DNA of 64,000 nucleotides from Anaerolineae bacterium (lineage in GTDB: Bacteria > Chloroflexota > Anaerolineae > Aggregatilineales > Ch27). A program made the position numbers and the translations under genes. Position 1 is the stretch's first letter, and each line of letters opens with the position of its first letter. A model generated the notes under the pieces. The model was not told where the DNA came from and searched no databases. It saw only the letters and a program-made list of their open reading frames with translations. The stretch lies in NCBI GenBank assembly GCA_013178165.1, contig JABLXG010000032.1:1-64000 (forward strand), written 5' to 3'. This document shows, in pieces, positions 2,639 through 61,145 of this stretch.

Positions 2639-3487
2639 ATGGTCGACGAGGCGACGCTGGCGCTGATGACCCGTAATGAGGCCGATATGGCCTTCAAGCG
2701 GCGGGTGCGCACGATCTTTGAGTGGATTGATCCGCAGAACGCTCATGTCATCCTGGATTGCGCCTGTGGACGTGGCTTCTACCTGAACATGCTCCGCTAT
2801 GCTGGCAAGGCCCGGCTGGTGGGGCTGGAACTGGAAGGAGCGATTATCCGCCGGGCGCACAGCAATGTCGGTCATCTGGACGACATCCTGCTCACGCAGG
2901 GAGACATCTACCGCCTGCCCTTTGCCAATAACACGTTCGATTCGGTGATCCTCTCGGAGATTCTGGAACACGTCACTGACGACCTGGCCGGTCTGCGCGA
3001 GGTGTACCGCGTCTTGAAACCGGGCGGGGTGGTGGCGATCACCGTGCCCAATGCCAATTACCCGTTCCTGTGGGACCCGATCAACAAGACGCTGGAAACA
3101 CTGTTCGGCGTGCACATTCAACACGGGCTGCTGGCAGGTATCTGGGCCAACCACGTCCGCCTGTACGAGCGCGACCGGCTACGGGCGGTAGTGGAAAAAG
3201 CGGGCTTCCTGGTGGAGGCTGAACGCGCCTTCACTCATTACAGCTTTCCATTCATTCACAATATCGTCTACGGGCTGGGCAAGCCACTGCTGGAAAGCGG
3301 TTTGTTGCCGGAGCAACTGGCTTTGGCTGCCGACCGCACCACGTTCGCGCGGAATAACGGCAGCCTGCTCAACCCGATCAACCTGGGTCTGGCGATCTTC
3401 AATGCCATCGATCGGCTGAACCGCACCAACGAACCGGAGGGCCGGTCGACGGTCAATCTGTGCATCAAGGGGCGCAAACCGGCATGA
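2639..3487 (+). CDS. Class I SAM-dependent methyltransferase
   Basis: A 282-residue Rossmann-fold methyltransferase. Motif I is ILDCACGRGFYLN, the acidic end of strand 2 is GLELEG, and motif II/III regions are QGDIYRLPFANNTFDSVILSE followed by LREVYRVLKPGG. The substrate is not evident. Its place between GT4 and GT-C genes suggests sugar methylation or lipid-carrier modification. The ATG at 2639 lies 3 bases after the preceding stop. Its stop overlaps the start of the next gene in an ATGA arrangement, so translational coupling is likely. Confidence 0.88.
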   Translation: MVDEATLALMTRNEADMAFKRRVRTIFEWIDPQNAHVILDCACGRGFYLNMLRYAGKARLVGLELEGAIIRRAHSNVGHLDDILLTQGDIYRLPFANNTFDSVILSEILEHVTDDLAGLREVYRVLKPGGVVAITVPNANYPFLWDPINKTLETLFGVHIQHGLLAGIWANHVRLYERDRLRAVVEKAGFLVEAERAFTHYSFPFIHNIVYGLGKPLLESGLLPEQLALAADRTTFARNNGSLLNPINLGLAIFNAIDRLNRTNEPEGRSTVNLCIKGRKPA

Positions 3488-52328: not shown

Positions 52329-53939
52329 ATGTTTCTGCTACCTGACTATCGCGTCCGACAGCGCGACTTTCTCCTTGAAATCACGCGGGCCATGACCTCC
52401 CAGCTTGATCTGGGCGAGGTCCTGCGCCTGATTCTGCGTGCTTCAGTTTCTATGCTGGCCGGAGAAGTCGGGCTGATGGCCCTGCGCGAGGGGGAGGATG
52501 GCGCGTTGCGGGTGCGGGCGCTGATTGGCGCTGCCCCGGAGGATGTGGCGGTCTTCACCCCGTTGCTGACAGGTGTTACCGATAGCGGCGAGGGGATCGT
52601 TATTGCCGATTTTGAGGCCAAGCTGCGCCGTGTGGCGGAAAGACTGCAGCTTCCGCTACGCCAGATGATCGCCCTGCCGATGATGCTCGGCCAGGAATTT
52701 GTCGGCGTGATCTATGTTTTTCGCTCGTTCACCGCAGCGACGACGCTCAACGACCGCCGCGTCCTGCAGAGTTTTGCTGACCAGGCCGCCATTGCCGTGC
52801 ACAATGCCCGGCTATACCAGGCCGTCAACCAGGAACGCCAGCGGCTGGCCCGCATCTTGGAAAATAGCGCCGATGGGGTGATGATCCTGGATGGCGGGCG
52901 GACGATCCAGACCTTCAACAAGGCGATGGCCCGCATGACTGGCTGGACGCCGGATCATGTGGTCGGCAAGCCCTATGACGTGGTGATCCGCTGGGCAGGC
53001 CGTCCACAGGGCCAGGACCTGGTGGACGCCATGCAGGCTGGTTGGCCATGGCCAAGCGCCAACAGAGCCTCTGAGACGCTGTACGTGGAAGGCGATCTGC
53101 TTCGTGCAGACGGCACGGTGCTCGGTGTCGGGATGACCTGCGCGCCGTTGATCGATAACGAAGGACGCCTGATCAACATCATCATCAACGTGCGGGATAT
53201 CTCGCACTTCCGCGAAGCGCAGAAGATGAAGTCCACTTTCATCTCCGTGATCTCGCATGAGCTGAAGACGCCCGTAGCGCTGATCAAGGGCTACGCGGAA
53301 ACGCTGCTGCGCGAAGACGCCAAATGGGATGAACAGGTAGTTCGCAACGGCCTGCAGGTGATCGGGGAAGAAGCTGACCGGTTAACGGAACTGATCGAGA
53401 ACCTGCTGGCGGCTTCTAAATTGCAGGCGGAAGGCATGGTCCTCAAGTACGAGGAGGTCATGCTTGACGAGCTGGCCCAAGCGGTGGTGGAACGCTTCAG
53501 GACACAGACGGATAAACACCGATTTGTGGTGGAGTTTCCCCGTGATTTCCCGGCGGTGCCGGGTGACGCCAGCCGCCTGCGGCAGGTGATTGACAACTTG
53601 GTCAGCAATGCGGTCAAGTATTCGCCGCGGGGAGGCGAGGTGCGCATCAGCGGCACGTATACCCCCGGTGAGGTGCGGATCGCCGTGCAGGATCAGGGGG
53701 TGGGCATTCCACAGGAGGAGTGGGAGCGCATCTTCGACCGGTTCTACCGCGTGGATGATGCGTTGACCCGTAAGACGCAGGGAACCGGCCTGGGGCTGTA
53801 TCTGGCGCGGGCTGTCGTGGAAGCGCATGGCGGCAAGATCGGCGTACACAGTGTGCCGGGGCAGGGTTCGACATTCTATTTCACCATACCGCGCCGCCAG
53901 GTATACCAGCATCAAGAAAGAGATCGGAGCGCAACATGA
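52329..53939 (+). CDS. Orphan sensor histidine kinase (GAF-PAS-HisKA-HATPase)
   Basis: A 536-residue cytoplasmic-looking kinase with no membrane helix. A GAF domain spans about 8-165, a PAS domain about 172-295 (RLARILENSADGVMILDGG...), HisKA about 300-365 with the phospho-His in ISHELKTPVALIKG (residue about 310), and HATPase_c about 410-525 with NLVSNAVKYS (N box), DQGVGIPQEEWERIF (G1) and GTGLGLYLARAVVEAHGG (G2). Input is unknown. No response regulator is adjacent. Its stop overlaps the CpXC gene start (ATGA), so the CpXC protein is the only obvious partner. Confidence 0.94.
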   Translation: MFLLPDYRVRQRDFLLEITRAMTSQLDLGEVLRLILRASVSMLAGEVGLMALREGEDGALRVRALIGAAPEDVAVFTPLLTGVTDSGEGIVIADFEAKLRRVAERLQLPLRQMIALPMMLGQEFVGVIYVFRSFTAATTLNDRRVLQSFADQAAIAVHNARLYQAVNQERQRLARILENSADGVMILDGGRTIQTFNKAMARMTGWTPDHVVGKPYDVVIRWAGRPQGQDLVDAMQAGWPWPSANRASETLYVEGDLLRADGTVLGVGMTCAPLIDNEGRLINIIINVRDISHFREAQKMKSTFISVISHELKTPVALIKGYAETLLREDAKWDEQVVRNGLQVIGEEADRLTELIENLLAASKLQAEGMVLKYEEVMLDELAQAVVERFRTQTDKHRFVVEFPRDFPAVPGDASRLRQVIDNLVSNAVKYSPRGGEVRISGTYTPGEVRIAVQDQGVGIPQEEWERIFDRFYRVDDALTRKTQGTGLGLYLARAVVEAHGGKIGVHSVPGQGSTFYFTIPRRQVYQHQERDRSAT

Positions 53940-55300
53940 CCCTGAATCAAATGGGCAGGGGCAACATGGTCACCTGTCCCAATTGCCGCCAGCCTTACCC
54001 GGCCCAGGTCGAGCAGATCATTGATGTTGGCCGCGATCCTTCGGCCAAGGCACGTTTCCTCTCCGGCCAGAGTGGCACAGCGACATGTCCCCATTGCGGC
54101 TACCGTGTCGGCCTGCTCGCGCCGCTGCTGTACCACGATCCAGCCAAGGAATTGCTGCTGGTCTATGTGCCGATGGAGCTTGGTTTGCAGAGGCAGGATC
54201 AGGAGCGCGTGATCGGCCAGCTGGTCAAGGTGGTGATGAATGGCACCCCGCCGGAACAGCGACGCGGGTATATGTTCCAGCCACGCACAATGCTGAGCCT
54301 GCAGGGGTTGATCGAAGCGGTTCTGGCGGCGGATGGCATTACGCCGGAAATGCTGGAGGCGCAGCGGGCCAGGCTGCGGCTGGTGGAGATGTTCCTTCAG
54401 ACAGATGAAGAGCAGATTCCGGCGCTGGTGCAGCAGTATGATAGCCAGATCGACCGGGAGTTCCTGGAAATCCTGTCAGTGGCCGCAGAAAACGCCCAGC
54501 TGAGCGGACGGCAGGACCTGGCCGCTCATGCCATGATGGTGCGCGATCAGGTGGTCACCCTTTCCAGTGCGGGCAAAGAGCTGCTGCAGCAGGCAGAAGC
54601 TCAGGACAGGGCGATTGAGGCGGCTGTTCGGGACCTGCAGGCGCTGGGCGAACGGCCTACCCTGGACGCGTTTGTCGACCTGGTGATCCGCAGCGCAGGC
54701 GATGATGACCGGTTGCAGGCGCTGGTCGGCTTGCAGTACCCGGCCTTTGACTACCGCTTCTTCCAGGAGTTGACCGAACGCATCGACGCTGCTGTGGAGC
54801 CGGAAAAGGTGCAGCTGGAGGCACTGCGCAGCCGCCTGACGGAATTAACGGAGACCATCCGGAAGCAGCAGGAGGCACGTGCCGAGACCGCGGCGGCTAT
54901 CCTCAGCCAGATCGTGCATAGTGAGAATATGGAAGAGGCCCTGCTGCGCAACCTGGCCTATGTAGATGAGGTGTTCATGGCCCTGCTGGACGCCAATCAG
55001 CGGGCAGCCGAGGAGCGCGGTGACCAGGCGCTGGCGGAGAAGCTCAAGCAGGTCGGGGAGACGATTACCCGGCTGGCGCAGGAGAGTATGCCGGCGGAAC
55101 TACGTTTTATCCGTGAACTGCTGCGTCAGGAGTCGCTGGAAGCGGCACGGGCCAAAATCGATGCCGAGGCCGCTCAGTACGGCCAGAAGCTGCTGCCGAT
55201 CATGGACTCGTTGCTGGAGCAATTACGTGGGCAGGGAGATAAAGCCCTGACTGAATACGTCCAGGCGCTGCGGGCTTATACCGCCGCTGCGATTGGTTGA
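53936..55300 (+). CDS. CpXC-domain protein with a helical C-terminal part
   Basis: A 454-residue protein. The N-terminal CpXC domain (about 12-85) has CPNCRQPYPAQVEQIIDVGR and CPHCGYRVGLLAPLLYHDPAKELLLVYVP, giving two CxxC pairs expected to bind zinc. The remainder (about 90-454) is almost all helical, with Leu/Glu/Gln-rich coiled-coil stretches such as VQLEALRSRLTELTETIRKQQ. Function is not known. It is translationally coupled to the histidine kinase through a 4-base overlap, implying a joint role. A terminator follows the stop. Confidence 0.85.
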   Translation: MTLNQMGRGNMVTCPNCRQPYPAQVEQIIDVGRDPSAKARFLSGQSGTATCPHCGYRVGLLAPLLYHDPAKELLLVYVPMELGLQRQDQERVIGQLVKVVMNGTPPEQRRGYMFQPRTMLSLQGLIEAVLAADGITPEMLEAQRARLRLVEMFLQTDEEQIPALVQQYDSQIDREFLEILSVAAENAQLSGRQDLAAHAMMVRDQVVTLSSAGKELLQQAEAQDRAIEAAVRDLQALGERPTLDAFVDLVIRSAGDDDRLQALVGLQYPAFDYRFFQELTERIDAAVEPEKVQLEALRSRLTELTETIRKQQEARAETAAAILSQIVHSENMEEALLRNLAYVDEVFMALLDANQRAAEERGDQALAEKLKQVGETITRLAQESMPAELRFIRELLRQESLEAARAKIDAEAAQYGQKLLPIMDSLLEQLRGQGDKALTEYVQALRAYTAAAIG

Positions 55301-55324: not shown

Positions 55325-55360
55325 ACGCCTCGCCGGTCGTTCAGACTGGCGGGGCGTTTT
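55325..55360 (+). terminator. Rho-independent terminator of the histidine kinase/CpXC operon
   Basis: A 13-bp stem (acgcctcgccggt with actggcggggcgt, two wobble pairs) closes a 7-base loop and runs into TTTT. It lies 24 bases after the CpXC stop and abuts the stop of the convergent PBP-like gene. Confidence 0.8.
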
Positions 55361-56798
55361 AGCGTCTGGTGGCCGGGGATGGCCCGTAGAAGCGGGCTGC
55401 TGTGTCCAGAATCAGCCCCCCGGCGCGGGCTGCCTCATCGACGGCAGGCGTATCTTCAAGGACGACGACCGTAACTACCGCCGTACCATTCGGGAAGACG
55501 ATCGTGCCGGCAAACCACTGTAGCGGCCTGGCCTCTGGCCCGGCGTAAGCTGTGGCGGCATGGCCGAGGATGGGAAAGCTGCTCATGTCTTGCGCTGCGG
55601 TTGCGGCGCCTTCGGCCACAGCTGCAGCCATGTAGCCCTGCATCAGGTGGGCATTCTCGCGGGTGAGCAAGGCGCGGGAGAGTCCACTCGGCGGGACGGA
55701 CTGCCAGGCATCTTCGCCGGGCAGGCGAATGGCGTCAACCAGGCGGAAGAGCGGGGCGTTGCCGTTGTTGGCGATGGCGGCGACCAGCTCCAGAACCTGC
55801 AGCGGCGTTACTGTCAGTGGCCCCTGGCCAACCAAGCTGGCGATGACAGCGTCCCGCGTTTCCTGTAACGAAAGCGGCATTGGCGAATCGGCGGTGGCCG
55901 TGCCCAGGCCCAGCAGTTCCGGCGGGGTGAGCAGGCCAAAACGCCACAGGGCGCCATCGATCCGGTTAGTCTCCAGCAGGGTGGTTAGCCGGGCGAAAGC
56001 GCCGGGGCAGCCATACTGGTAGGCTTCCGGCAGGGTGAGTCCTTCGCGGGGGGCGGTGGCGCCGCAGGAGAGTTCCAGGCCATTGACACTGACCGTTTCG
56101 GTGGCGGTTGGCACGATGCGATCGATCGGGCTGCGCTCCGCCAGCAGGGCCGCCAGCAGGGCCGTCTGCAGTATACCGCCCGGCTGGTATAGACCCTGAG
56201 TCACCCGGTTGAGTAGCGGTGCATCCGGCGACTGGATCAGTACCGGCCAGTCTTCATCCAGAAAGTTAGGGTCATAGCTGGGGGCGCTGGCCAGCGCCCG
56301 GACACCGCCATCCGGCACCGTGATCACGACCGCTGCCCCGCTGCGGTTCGCCAGGGCTTGCATGGCTGCCTGTTGCACCTGCAGGTTCAGGGTCAATCGG
56401 ACATCGCCGCCGACGGCTGGCTGGTGAAGCAGGCCGCGCAGGGCGGTATCCAGCGGCCCGGGGCCGATTTCCCCGCGTAGCAGCGCATCATAGGTGGTTT
56501 CGATGCCGGCAGTGCCATAGCGCAGACTGTAATAGCCAACCGGCGGGGCGGCTTCCGGATGTGGATACAGGCGGCGTAGCCCGCGCCCATTGTAGTCGGT
56601 GCTTGTCTCGGCCAGGAGCATCCCATGCTCGTCGTAGATTCGCCCGCGCTGGAGAACCCGTTCGGCCTCGATCAGGCGCGGGTTGTCTGCTCTACGGAGC
56701 AGATCGTCGCTACGGATGATGCCCCAATAGGTGGCTGCCAGTGCCATGACCAGGAAGGCCAGCAACACGCCGCCTGTAACCCGGCGCAGCTCGGTCAT
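55359..56798 (-). CDS. Degenerate class B penicillin-binding protein (PbpA-like, catalytic motifs lost)
   Basis: A 479-residue single-pass protein with an N-terminal membrane helix (GGVLLAFLVMALAATYWGIIRS). The class B dimerisation domain is clear (ADNPRLIEAERVLQRGRIYDEHGMLLAE...RRLYPHPE). The transpeptidase domain keeps the overall order but lacks every active-site motif: the SxxK position reads GGILQ (about residue 205; normally GSTFK), the SxN position reads GCP (about residue 260), and KTG reads HAA (about residue 411, in GHAATAYA). It cannot cross-link peptidoglycan by the known mechanism. Start 56798 overlaps the rodA-like stop (ATGA), as in active rodA-pbpA pairs. A regulatory or scaffold role is inferred. 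Confidence 0.83.
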   Translation of the reverse strand: MTELRRVTGGVLLAFLVMALAATYWGIIRSDDLLRRADNPRLIEAERVLQRGRIYDEHGMLLAETSTDYNGRGLRRLYPHPEAAPPVGYYSLRYGTAGIETTYDALLRGEIGPGPLDTALRGLLHQPAVGGDVRLTLNLQVQQAAMQALANRSGAAVVITVPDGGVRALASAPSYDPNFLDEDWPVLIQSPDAPLLNRVTQGLYQPGGILQTALLAALLAERSPIDRIVPTATETVSVNGLELSCGATAPREGLTLPEAYQYGCPGAFARLTTLLETNRIDGALWRFGLLTPPELLGLGTATADSPMPLSLQETRDAVIASLVGQGPLTVTPLQVLELVAAIANNGNAPLFRLVDAIRLPGEDAWQSVPPSGLSRALLTRENAHLMQGYMAAAVAEGAATAAQDMSSFPILGHAATAYAGPEARPLQWFAGTIVFPNGTAVVTVVVLEDTPAVDEAARAGGLILDTAARFYGPSPATRR

Positions 56799-59913: not shown

Positions 59914-60351
59914 CTACTCCAGTTGCAGGCGCAATGTTACACGTCCGATGCCGATCAGGTCGCCGCTGCTCAGGATGACCGGCTCACGGACGCGCGAGCC
60001 GTTCAGAAAGGTGCCGTTGCTGCTTCCCCGATCCTCCAGCCACCAGTTGCCTTCACGGTAGGTGATCAGGGCGTGTTCGTTACTGGCGAATGTATCGGCC
60101 AGATGCACAGTGTTAGTGGGGGCGCGTCCCAGGCTGGTGAGCGGGAGCAGCGGGAACTCGGTGTCCAGCGGAACTTCGTCGCTATCTGAGGCCAGGACGA
60201 TCAGCCGCCCGCGCGGGATGCGTCGCTGTTCGATCTCCCGCGTGGTGACCTGGTAATCCCGCCAGAGCAACAGGAGCAGGGCGCCAACAAACAGGAGGAG
60301 TAACCCGGCTGCGCTCAGCCGCAGGATGAGGAGCAATACCGCTTCGTTCAC
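59914..60351 (-). CDS. fhaB: Membrane-anchored FHA-domain protein (FhaB/FipA-like)
   Basis: A 145-residue protein. An N-terminal membrane helix (LRLSAAGLLLLFVGALLLLLWRDYQV) is followed by a linker and an FHA domain (residues about 68-143) with TSLGRAPTNTVHLAD, NEHALITYREGNWWLEDRGSSNGTFLNG. It binds phosphothreonine peptides. FhaB of actinobacteria is a substrate reader for the PASTA kinase and sits next to rodA-pbpA there. The start overlaps the fhaA stop (ATGA). Confidence 0.88.
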   Translation of the reverse strand: MNEAVLLLILRLSAAGLLLLFVGALLLLLWRDYQVTTREIEQRRIPRGRLIVLASDSDEVPLDTEFPLLPLTSLGRAPTNTVHLADTFASNEHALITYREGNWWLEDRGSSNGTFLNGSRVREPVILSSGDLIGIGRVTLRLQLE

Positions 60352-61145
60352 GGGGTCGATCCTTCAGGCGGTTGGGGCGGATGCAGGTCAAGCTGGGTGT
60401 CGGCCATCGTGCGGTCCGGCTGCTCGTCATCCAGGTAAAGCAGGGAGACTCCCCCAATCCGGATGACATCGCCTGAAGAGAGGATGTGCTCGCTGGTACG
60501 CTGGCCGTTGACGTAAGTGCCGCTCCGGCTATGACGGTCGTAGAGCACATAACGGCCCTGGCGCAGTCGAATCTGGAGATGATGGCGGGAGACGCGCAGG
60601 TCTTCCAGAATCAGATCGTTGTCCGGATGCCGGCCCACGTTGAAGACTTCAAGGTTCAGGGCGACGATTCGCTTGCCGTCCACAATCAGTTGCGCTCCTG
60701 CCGGGGGCGACGCCATGACCGGTAGGCCGGGCTGAACCGGCTCCAGAATCTGGGTAGTGTCATGCTTGCGTGCGCGGTGCTGGGCAGTGATCTGCACCTG
60801 CTGGCGTGGGATGTCCGCGTCAGCCAGCAGGCTGACTTCCGGCGTGCTGAGCAGGATCAGCCGGGCTTCCTGGCAATATGTCACCACCTGGCGGGCCAGT
60901 TGTCCCCCCAGATCGGGCATCTCTGCCAGCAGGAGGCGGTGATCGTGCGGGTTAAGCCGGATCTGGTACTGGGTCGGGGCTAACTCGCGCTCTTCCGGGC
61001 CAGCCAGAAGGTTGTCCTCAATGGCATGGGCCAGTTGCACGGCCACTTCCCGCGGGTGCACTGACGCGCGGAAGAGGCGGGAGAACCCGCCTTCGATCAG
61101 CCGCTCCAGCCGTTCTTCAAGCTGGTTGATTCGTCGCCTGGTCAT
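60348..61145 (-). CDS. fhaA: FhaA-like protein (DUF3662 + FHA domain)
   Basis: A 265-residue soluble protein. The N-terminal DUF3662 region (about 1-120) begins RINQLEERLERLIEGGFSRLFRASVHPREVAVQLAHAIEDN. A linker follows, then an FHA domain (about 165-245) with FNVGRHPDNDLILEDLRVSRHHLQIRLRQGRYVLYDRHSRSGTYVNG. In actinobacteria FhaA binds phosphorylated MviN/RodA-cluster proteins and regulates peptidoglycan synthesis. No kinase gene is in this window. The start at 61145 lies about 1 base after the predicted transcription start, so the mRNA may be leaderless. Confidence 0.88.
   Translation of the reverse strand: MTRRRINQLEERLERLIEGGFSRLFRASVHPREVAVQLAHAIEDNLLAGPEERELAPTQYQIRLNPHDHRLLLAEMPDLGGQLARQVVTYCQEARLILLSTPEVSLLADADIPRQQVQITAQHRARKHDTTQILEPVQPGLPVMASPPAGAQLIVDGKRIVALNLEVFNVGRHPDNDLILEDLRVSRHHLQIRLRQGRYVLYDRHSRSGTYVNGQRTSEHILSSGDVIRIGGVSLLYLDDEQPDRTMADTQLDLHPPQPPEGSTP

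Follow-up and report, generated by a model that had tools for sequence, protein, structure and literature searches.

Known SEDS-bPBP systems

The gene order fhaA-fhaB-rodA-pbpA is known in Actinobacteria. How class B penicillin-binding proteins (bPBPs) control SEDS polymerases beyond cross-linking is an open question, which has been studied through point mutants and engineered fusions. Allosteric control of the SEDS partner by a bPBP is described for PBP2 acting on RodA (PMC6207328, PMC10257715). The transmembrane (TM) helix of PBP2, when fused to RodA, is enough to stimulate its glycosyltransferase activity in vitro (PMC10449877). In B. subtilis, division still proceeds with the catalytically dead PBP2B S309A as long as the cell has PBP3, which is related to S. 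aureus PBP2A (PMC5656894). Contrary evidence comes from E. coli: the S330C variant of PBP2 is dominant negative, and wild-type interaction with RodA is not obtained with the TM helix by itself (PMC7793260). RagB interacts with B. subtilis RodA and is proposed to stimulate it (PMC12457691).

Natural SEDS-PBP fusions have also been noted, with the Rhodococcus RHA1 genome cited, and the available passages of that report contain nothing on dead ones (PMC10449877). Such fusions and engineered dead bPBPs are already known, whereas the literature search, which did not cover many subscription papers, yielded no account of a bPBP family that is dead in nature, of dead fusions, of TM-only partners or of RodA-PBP work in Chloroflexota.

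Composition of the locus

The locus lies in a 64,000-nucleotide stretch of DNA from an Anaerolineae bacterium, referred to here as the window, and comprises a rodA gene and a gene for a PbpA-type bPBP without catalytic residues, the pseudo-PBP (Table 1). The pseudo-PBP frame is open from the ATG at 56798 to the stop ending at 55359 on the reverse strand, and its ATG overlaps the rodA TGA (ATGA). The Pfam matches to Transpeptidase (PF00905, E 4e-15) and PBP_dimer_2 (PF21922, E 2e-8) are both above cut-off, and a full-length alignment to solved PbpA-type proteins was obtained. The N-terminal TM helix, the pedestal or dimerisation domain and the transpeptidase (TP) fold that define the class B PBP architecture are thus all present. 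This agrees with the first-pass annotation, which had described a dimerisation domain and a TP fold kept in order within an intact frame overlapping the rodA stop. An AlphaFold prediction from two alignment rows reached a pLDDT of 33 and is too poor for use. A gene for a CpXC-domain protein (window 53936-55300 (+)) follows a sensor histidine kinase-like gene (52329-53939) and is convergent with the pseudo-PBP gene.

Table 1. Positions of the pseudo-PBP, its parts, neighbouring genes and related loci (window coordinates unless a locus is named)
Feature	Position (strand)	Basis
pseudo-PBP (479 aa), PbpA-type class B PBP lacking catalytic residues	55359..56798 (-)	
Predicted TM helix of pseudo-PBP; part retained in the shortest homologues	56712..56780 (-), bounds approximate	sequence
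RADNPR juxtamembrane motif	56676..56693 (-)	
PBP_dimer_2 (pedestal) domain	56463..56648 (-)	Pfam
TP-fold domain (PF00905), non-catalytic	55446..56339 (-)	Pfam
Former SxxK, now G-I-L-Q	56166..56177 (-)	alignment
Cys246, invariant; probable disulfide partner of the GCP Cys	56064..56066 (-)	
Former SxN, now G-C-P; C and P invariant (98/98)	56004..56012 (-)	alignment
Former KTG, now H-A-A	55554..55562 (-)	alignment
rodA, SEDS glycosyltransferase, 430 aa; retains the VHSDF catalytic Asp and further key residues	56795..58087 (-)	
FHA-domain protein, FhaB-like; upstream, same gene group	59914..60351 (-)	Pfam, synteny
FhaA-like protein (FhaA_N and FHA); exact start uncertain (61127 or higher)	60348..61127 (-)	Pfam, synteny
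Dead RodA-PBP fusion loci	L054-L058, L067, L069, L073, L076-L078, L091, L093, L105-L109, L133, L135, L136	
Active RodA-PBP fusion locus	L101	
TM-only genes of genus g34	L179 (about 2925-3104), L188, L189	

The neighbouring RodA matches FTSW_RODA_SPOVE in Pfam (E 1e-72). It retains the catalytic Asp of VHSDF and the Pro before it, the Trp of LWL, QPSE..K and DLG. Alignment and visual comparison match these to the key E. coli RodA residues D262, P257, W102, E114/K117 and D159 (PMC10449877). The locus matches a SEDS-bPBP synthase pair in that its bPBP gene is tied to a SEDS gene and the SEDS protein keeps its catalytic Asp and key residues; binding and activation of the polymerase by the bPBP are inferred from precedents. 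Of the 151 genomes of the order, 137 have a rodA of this type and 131 have the PBP; 130 have both and 13 neither, and several exceptions coincide with contig ends. The pseudo-PBP adjoins rodA or is fused to it in most loci, and this near-constant association, together with joint loss (13/151), bears out the earlier proposal that a dead PBP is paired with RodA. Some genomes of the order do without the pair, which is therefore not essential everywhere. Genes for FhaA- and FhaB-like proteins are found upstream, both here in the window and, by synteny, in dead and active relatives alike, which indicates that active and dead loci are the same locus.

Loss of the catalytic motifs

In a profile alignment of the pseudo-PBP against the solved PbpA-type PBPs 4MNR, 4N1X and 4RA7, PG-STFK (or PG-SSFK) aligns with PG-GILQ, SxN with GCP, and GKTG with GHAA. 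The order was sampled with 98 genomes from eight families, namely that of the window and 97 others. The SxxK Lys is absent from all of these orthologues (98/98), and a Ser stands at the SxxK Ser position in 17 of the 98, always without the Lys, so that the complete Ser and Lys pair occurs in none (0/98). SxN is replaced by xCP throughout (98/98) and K[TS]G is never found (0/98). The order orthologues accordingly fail the motif requirement for a class B PBP enzyme. In contrast, all three motifs are intact in 55 of the 56 orthologues counted as active elsewhere in the phylum, the single exception probably being a row with a broken or partial frame. Among the families of this class, active proteins occur in f14, f40, f44 and f53 and dead ones in f11, f12, f17, f23, f28, f34, f42 and f54, while f64, in another class, is one further dead case. 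The closest named relative is a Chloroflexi MAG whose pseudo-PBP protein is 90% identical.

At the level of sequence, the catalytic loss in the pseudo-PBP is established, and the first-pass reading of SxxK, SxN and KTG as GILQ, GCP and HAA holds against the solved proteins. That reading had left to an alignment of Chloroflexota PbpA homologues whether the loss extends through the lineage. With 98/98 order orthologues dead and 55/56 active elsewhere, the loss, as inferred from these motifs, is lineage-wide and old.

The same contrast rules out sequencing error or chance as the source of the motif changes. Relocated catalytic residues have no conserved candidate in the pseudo-PBP family: profile alignment and conservation across the order revealed no alternative conserved Ser/Lys pair. 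Such a pair was one of the findings by which the original interpretation could have been refuted.

The number of losses is undecided, since the trees of RodA and of the PBP conflict. On the RodA tree a minimum of two changes is required, one for the class-level group and one for f64, which lies inside a well-supported active clade; an AU test on this tree rejects a single dead clade (p 0.011), for a group that was named after the data had been seen. In the PBP tree, built after masking the motif columns, all dead proteins fall on one side of a branch (100/94), and f64 also carries the GCP form. This grouping is not decisive, since loss of function can itself draw dead sequences together. Either one or two catalytic losses are possible.

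Maintenance of the pseudo-PBP

Against the 90% identical relative, the dN/dS (omega) of the pseudo-PBP is 0.104. By part, it is 0.086 for the TM helix with the pedestal and 0.098 for the TP domain, compared with 0.041 for rodA, and the TP domain of the window's genus is thus not relaxed relative to the pedestal. Since it is constrained as strongly as the pedestal in this genus, the dead TP domain is probably more than idle, though its role is unknown. Across the full-length dead proteins, conservation is highest in the juxtamembrane segment with DNPR (mean entropy 1.52 vs 1.8-2.1 elsewhere), and the RADNPR residues R37, D39, N40 and R42 are conserved in 84-86 of 86 sequences of the order.

A retained fold, clade-wide loss of the catalytic residues and purifying selection are the marks of a pseudoenzyme. 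An intact frame and an omega of 0.10 do not fit a pseudogene, a reading that is ruled out by these values and by the 98 genomes. The earlier view of a maintained protein is therefore sustained. In one genome (L184, G023) the pseudo-PBP is split in two frames, which represents either an assembly frameshift or real decay.

Fused, shortened and TM-only relatives

RodA and PBP share one open frame at 22 loci, of which 21 are dead and one (f100) is active; these fusions occur in f6, f11, f12, f17, f34, f42, f54, f64 and f100. In f11, f23 and f34, the TP part is reduced to ~190-250 aa and the SxN region is gone. Three species of genus g34 have a protein of only 57-60 aa directly after rodA, which consists of the TM helix and R-x-DNPR followed by a stop. 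These TM-only proteins score 36-42 bits with the N-terminal HMM, against a background maximum of 15. Purifying selection acts on their TM and DNPR part (omega 0.16-0.25); in the only pair measured, and on very few changes, the short tail shows no constraint. The g34 RodA lacks the Trp loop, so its activity is uncertain. At L185 (G032), the PBP retains only the TM helix and RQDNPR, followed by ~80 unrelated residues.

The RodA of L180 and L181 (f32) and of L190 (G404) carries an extra C-terminal hydrophobic helix at the position where the PBP would start, with no PBP after it. Homology to the PBP helix is not shown for the f32 helix (G084, G118), its score being within the background of other helices, and is borderline for the G404 helix.

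Judged by sequence comparison, this natural series suggests that the part of its partner which RodA requires is the membrane-proximal one.

Proposed function and alternatives

The pseudo-PBP is likely to be a pseudo-transpeptidase that has kept its fold and its partnership with RodA and does not undergo acylation; most likely it is the membrane partner that RodA needs, with cross-links made in trans. The partner would be a third RodA, of the Actinobacteria type. From the motif loss, the pseudo-PBP is inferred to be unable to acylate on stem peptides or beta-lactams. Its TM helix and juxtamembrane or pedestal part would dock on RodA, and the docked protein would keep the polymerase on or switch it on, both binding and stimulation being inferred. 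Activation of RodA by a dead partner is an inference by analogy, with precedent in E. coli and B. subtilis. The earlier suggestion of allosteric RodA activation by a dead PBP is thus supported in its non-catalytic and RodA-tied part, while activation itself rests on precedents only.

Strands made by this RodA may be cross-linked in trans by other enzymes of the cell. The genome has two canonical SEDS-bPBP pairs with intact motifs, in an MreB/MreD-PBP2-MinCD-RodA cluster and in FtsI-MraY-MurD-FtsW (PBP, SEDS and MreB were assigned from Pfam matches; MreD, MinCD, MraY and MurD from sequences and gene order). Intact motifs are also found in an orphan MecA_N-type bPBP and in three class A PBPs, whereas the TP domain of a fourth class A PBP is degenerate. 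The genome further encodes four YkuD L,D-transpeptidases. Given the active PBP2, FtsI, MecA_N-type bPBP and three class A PBPs, any of which may serve these strands, cross-linking is available elsewhere in the cell. This inventory of other PBPs and L,D-transpeptidases, which the first-pass annotation had called for, favours one half of its proposal that cross-linking is done elsewhere or is absent; absence does not fit. The degenerate class A PBP (L050:2081-5065 (-), contig C14 of the window's genome, G000) has SMLR for SxxK and no KTG, and its glycosyltransferase domain still matches its family.

The MecA_N-type bPBP was considered as a compensating enzyme. It is present in 39 of 41 dead genomes vs 16 of 39 active ones, an association that is phylogenetically confounded and remains a suggestion only: the RodA tree offers just two independent contrasts, which do not support the link, and the dead f64 genome lacks this bPBP.

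A wider evolutionary reading is possible but held more tentatively. One RodA lineage may have uncoupled glycan polymerisation from its own transpeptidase, passing from enzyme to pseudoenzyme and then, in side branches, to fused or TP-shortened forms and lastly to one TM helix with DNPR. If true, this uncoupling would be a natural experiment showing that the one job a bPBP cannot give up is keeping its SEDS polymerase active through the membrane helix.

Among the alternatives, the former active site could act as a sensor or dock, in which the TP fold binds a stem peptide, lipid II, another PBP or an FHA-linked regulator non-covalently, so that RodA would be regulated by a ligand and not simply activated. 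The purifying selection on the TP domain (omega ~0.10), its own invariant residues (C246, C265, P266, Q326 and W429) and the presence of FhaA and FhaB at the locus are consistent with this. It is nevertheless unlikely, as the TP part was shortened in f11, f23 and f34 or lost in g34 while RodA stayed, and a TP-borne signal is therefore not generally required.

It is very improbable that the locus is a relaxed relic, a third RodA-PBP pair that is disappearing, with catalysis lost first and the fold persisting for a time. The pair is absent in many families of the class and in certain genomes of the order, one copy (G023) is split, and relatives show stepwise truncation, all of which could be read in this way. 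Against it stand the omega of 0.10 without excess in the TP domain, the old loss, which the 98 genomes checked (8 families) have in common along with invariant residues, and the constraint that persists even in the TM-only form (omega 0.16-0.25).

Conservation analysis of the order sequences found no other conserved Ser/Lys/His set in the TP domain. The only invariant candidates in the former active-site region are two cysteines, which co-vary like a disulfide. Cys246, Cys265 and Pro266 are invariant in 98/98 order orthologues; among the sampled dead sequences, both cysteines are present in 53 and absent in 13, and never occur singly, and active relatives display all four combinations. The co-occurrence in dead sequences suggests a putative Cys246-Cys265 disulfide that stabilises the fold. 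New chemistry, with a nucleophile such as the invariant Cys265 at the centre of the former SxN or His414, which replaces the KTG Lys in 62/98, for a different acyl transfer, is hardly credible, since Cys265 tracks Cys246 and many active relatives already have it as the x of SCN, as fits an inherited disulfide, while His414 is not conserved and no conserved Ser/Lys pair exists.

Comparison with known systems

The preferred reading, a non-catalytic membrane partner, suggests that this RodA depends on its dead PBP for switching or scaffolding, not for enzymatic activity. Evolution has split the two jobs of a bPBP, with full-length dead, fused, TP-shortened and TM-only partners among related bacteria, and this natural series is directly comparable in lipid II polymerisation assays. 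If acylation is absent as inferred, dead bPBP partners should be blind to beta-lactams.

The pseudo-PBP has the same full-length domain order, with PBP_dimer_2, as the PbpA-type bPBPs paired with RodA (M. tuberculosis PbpA, PDB 3LO7/3UN7; 4MNR, 4N1X, 4JBF). The PbpA systems and the window locus also share an adjoining rodA and fhaA/fhaB in the gene group. Unlike the active PbpA relatives, which have all three motifs, the pseudo-PBP lacks SxxK, SxN and KTG.

It resembles B. subtilis PBP2B S309A, a dead bPBP that supports a synthase complex while PBP3 cross-links (PMC5656894), and the window's genome likewise has a MecA_N-type bPBP. However, PBP2B S309A is a laboratory point mutant of the divisome, whereas the pseudo-PBP is natural, old, lineage-wide and paired with RodA. 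RagB is also a proposed RodA stimulator but, unlike the pseudo-PBP, is not described as a PBP and is not a cognate bPBP (PMC12457691). The E. coli RodA-PBP2 fusion and the RodA-TM-helix fusion are mirrored by the natural RodA-PBP frames and the TM-only partners; the E. coli fusions are engineered, and the full fusion has an active TP domain (PMC10449877).
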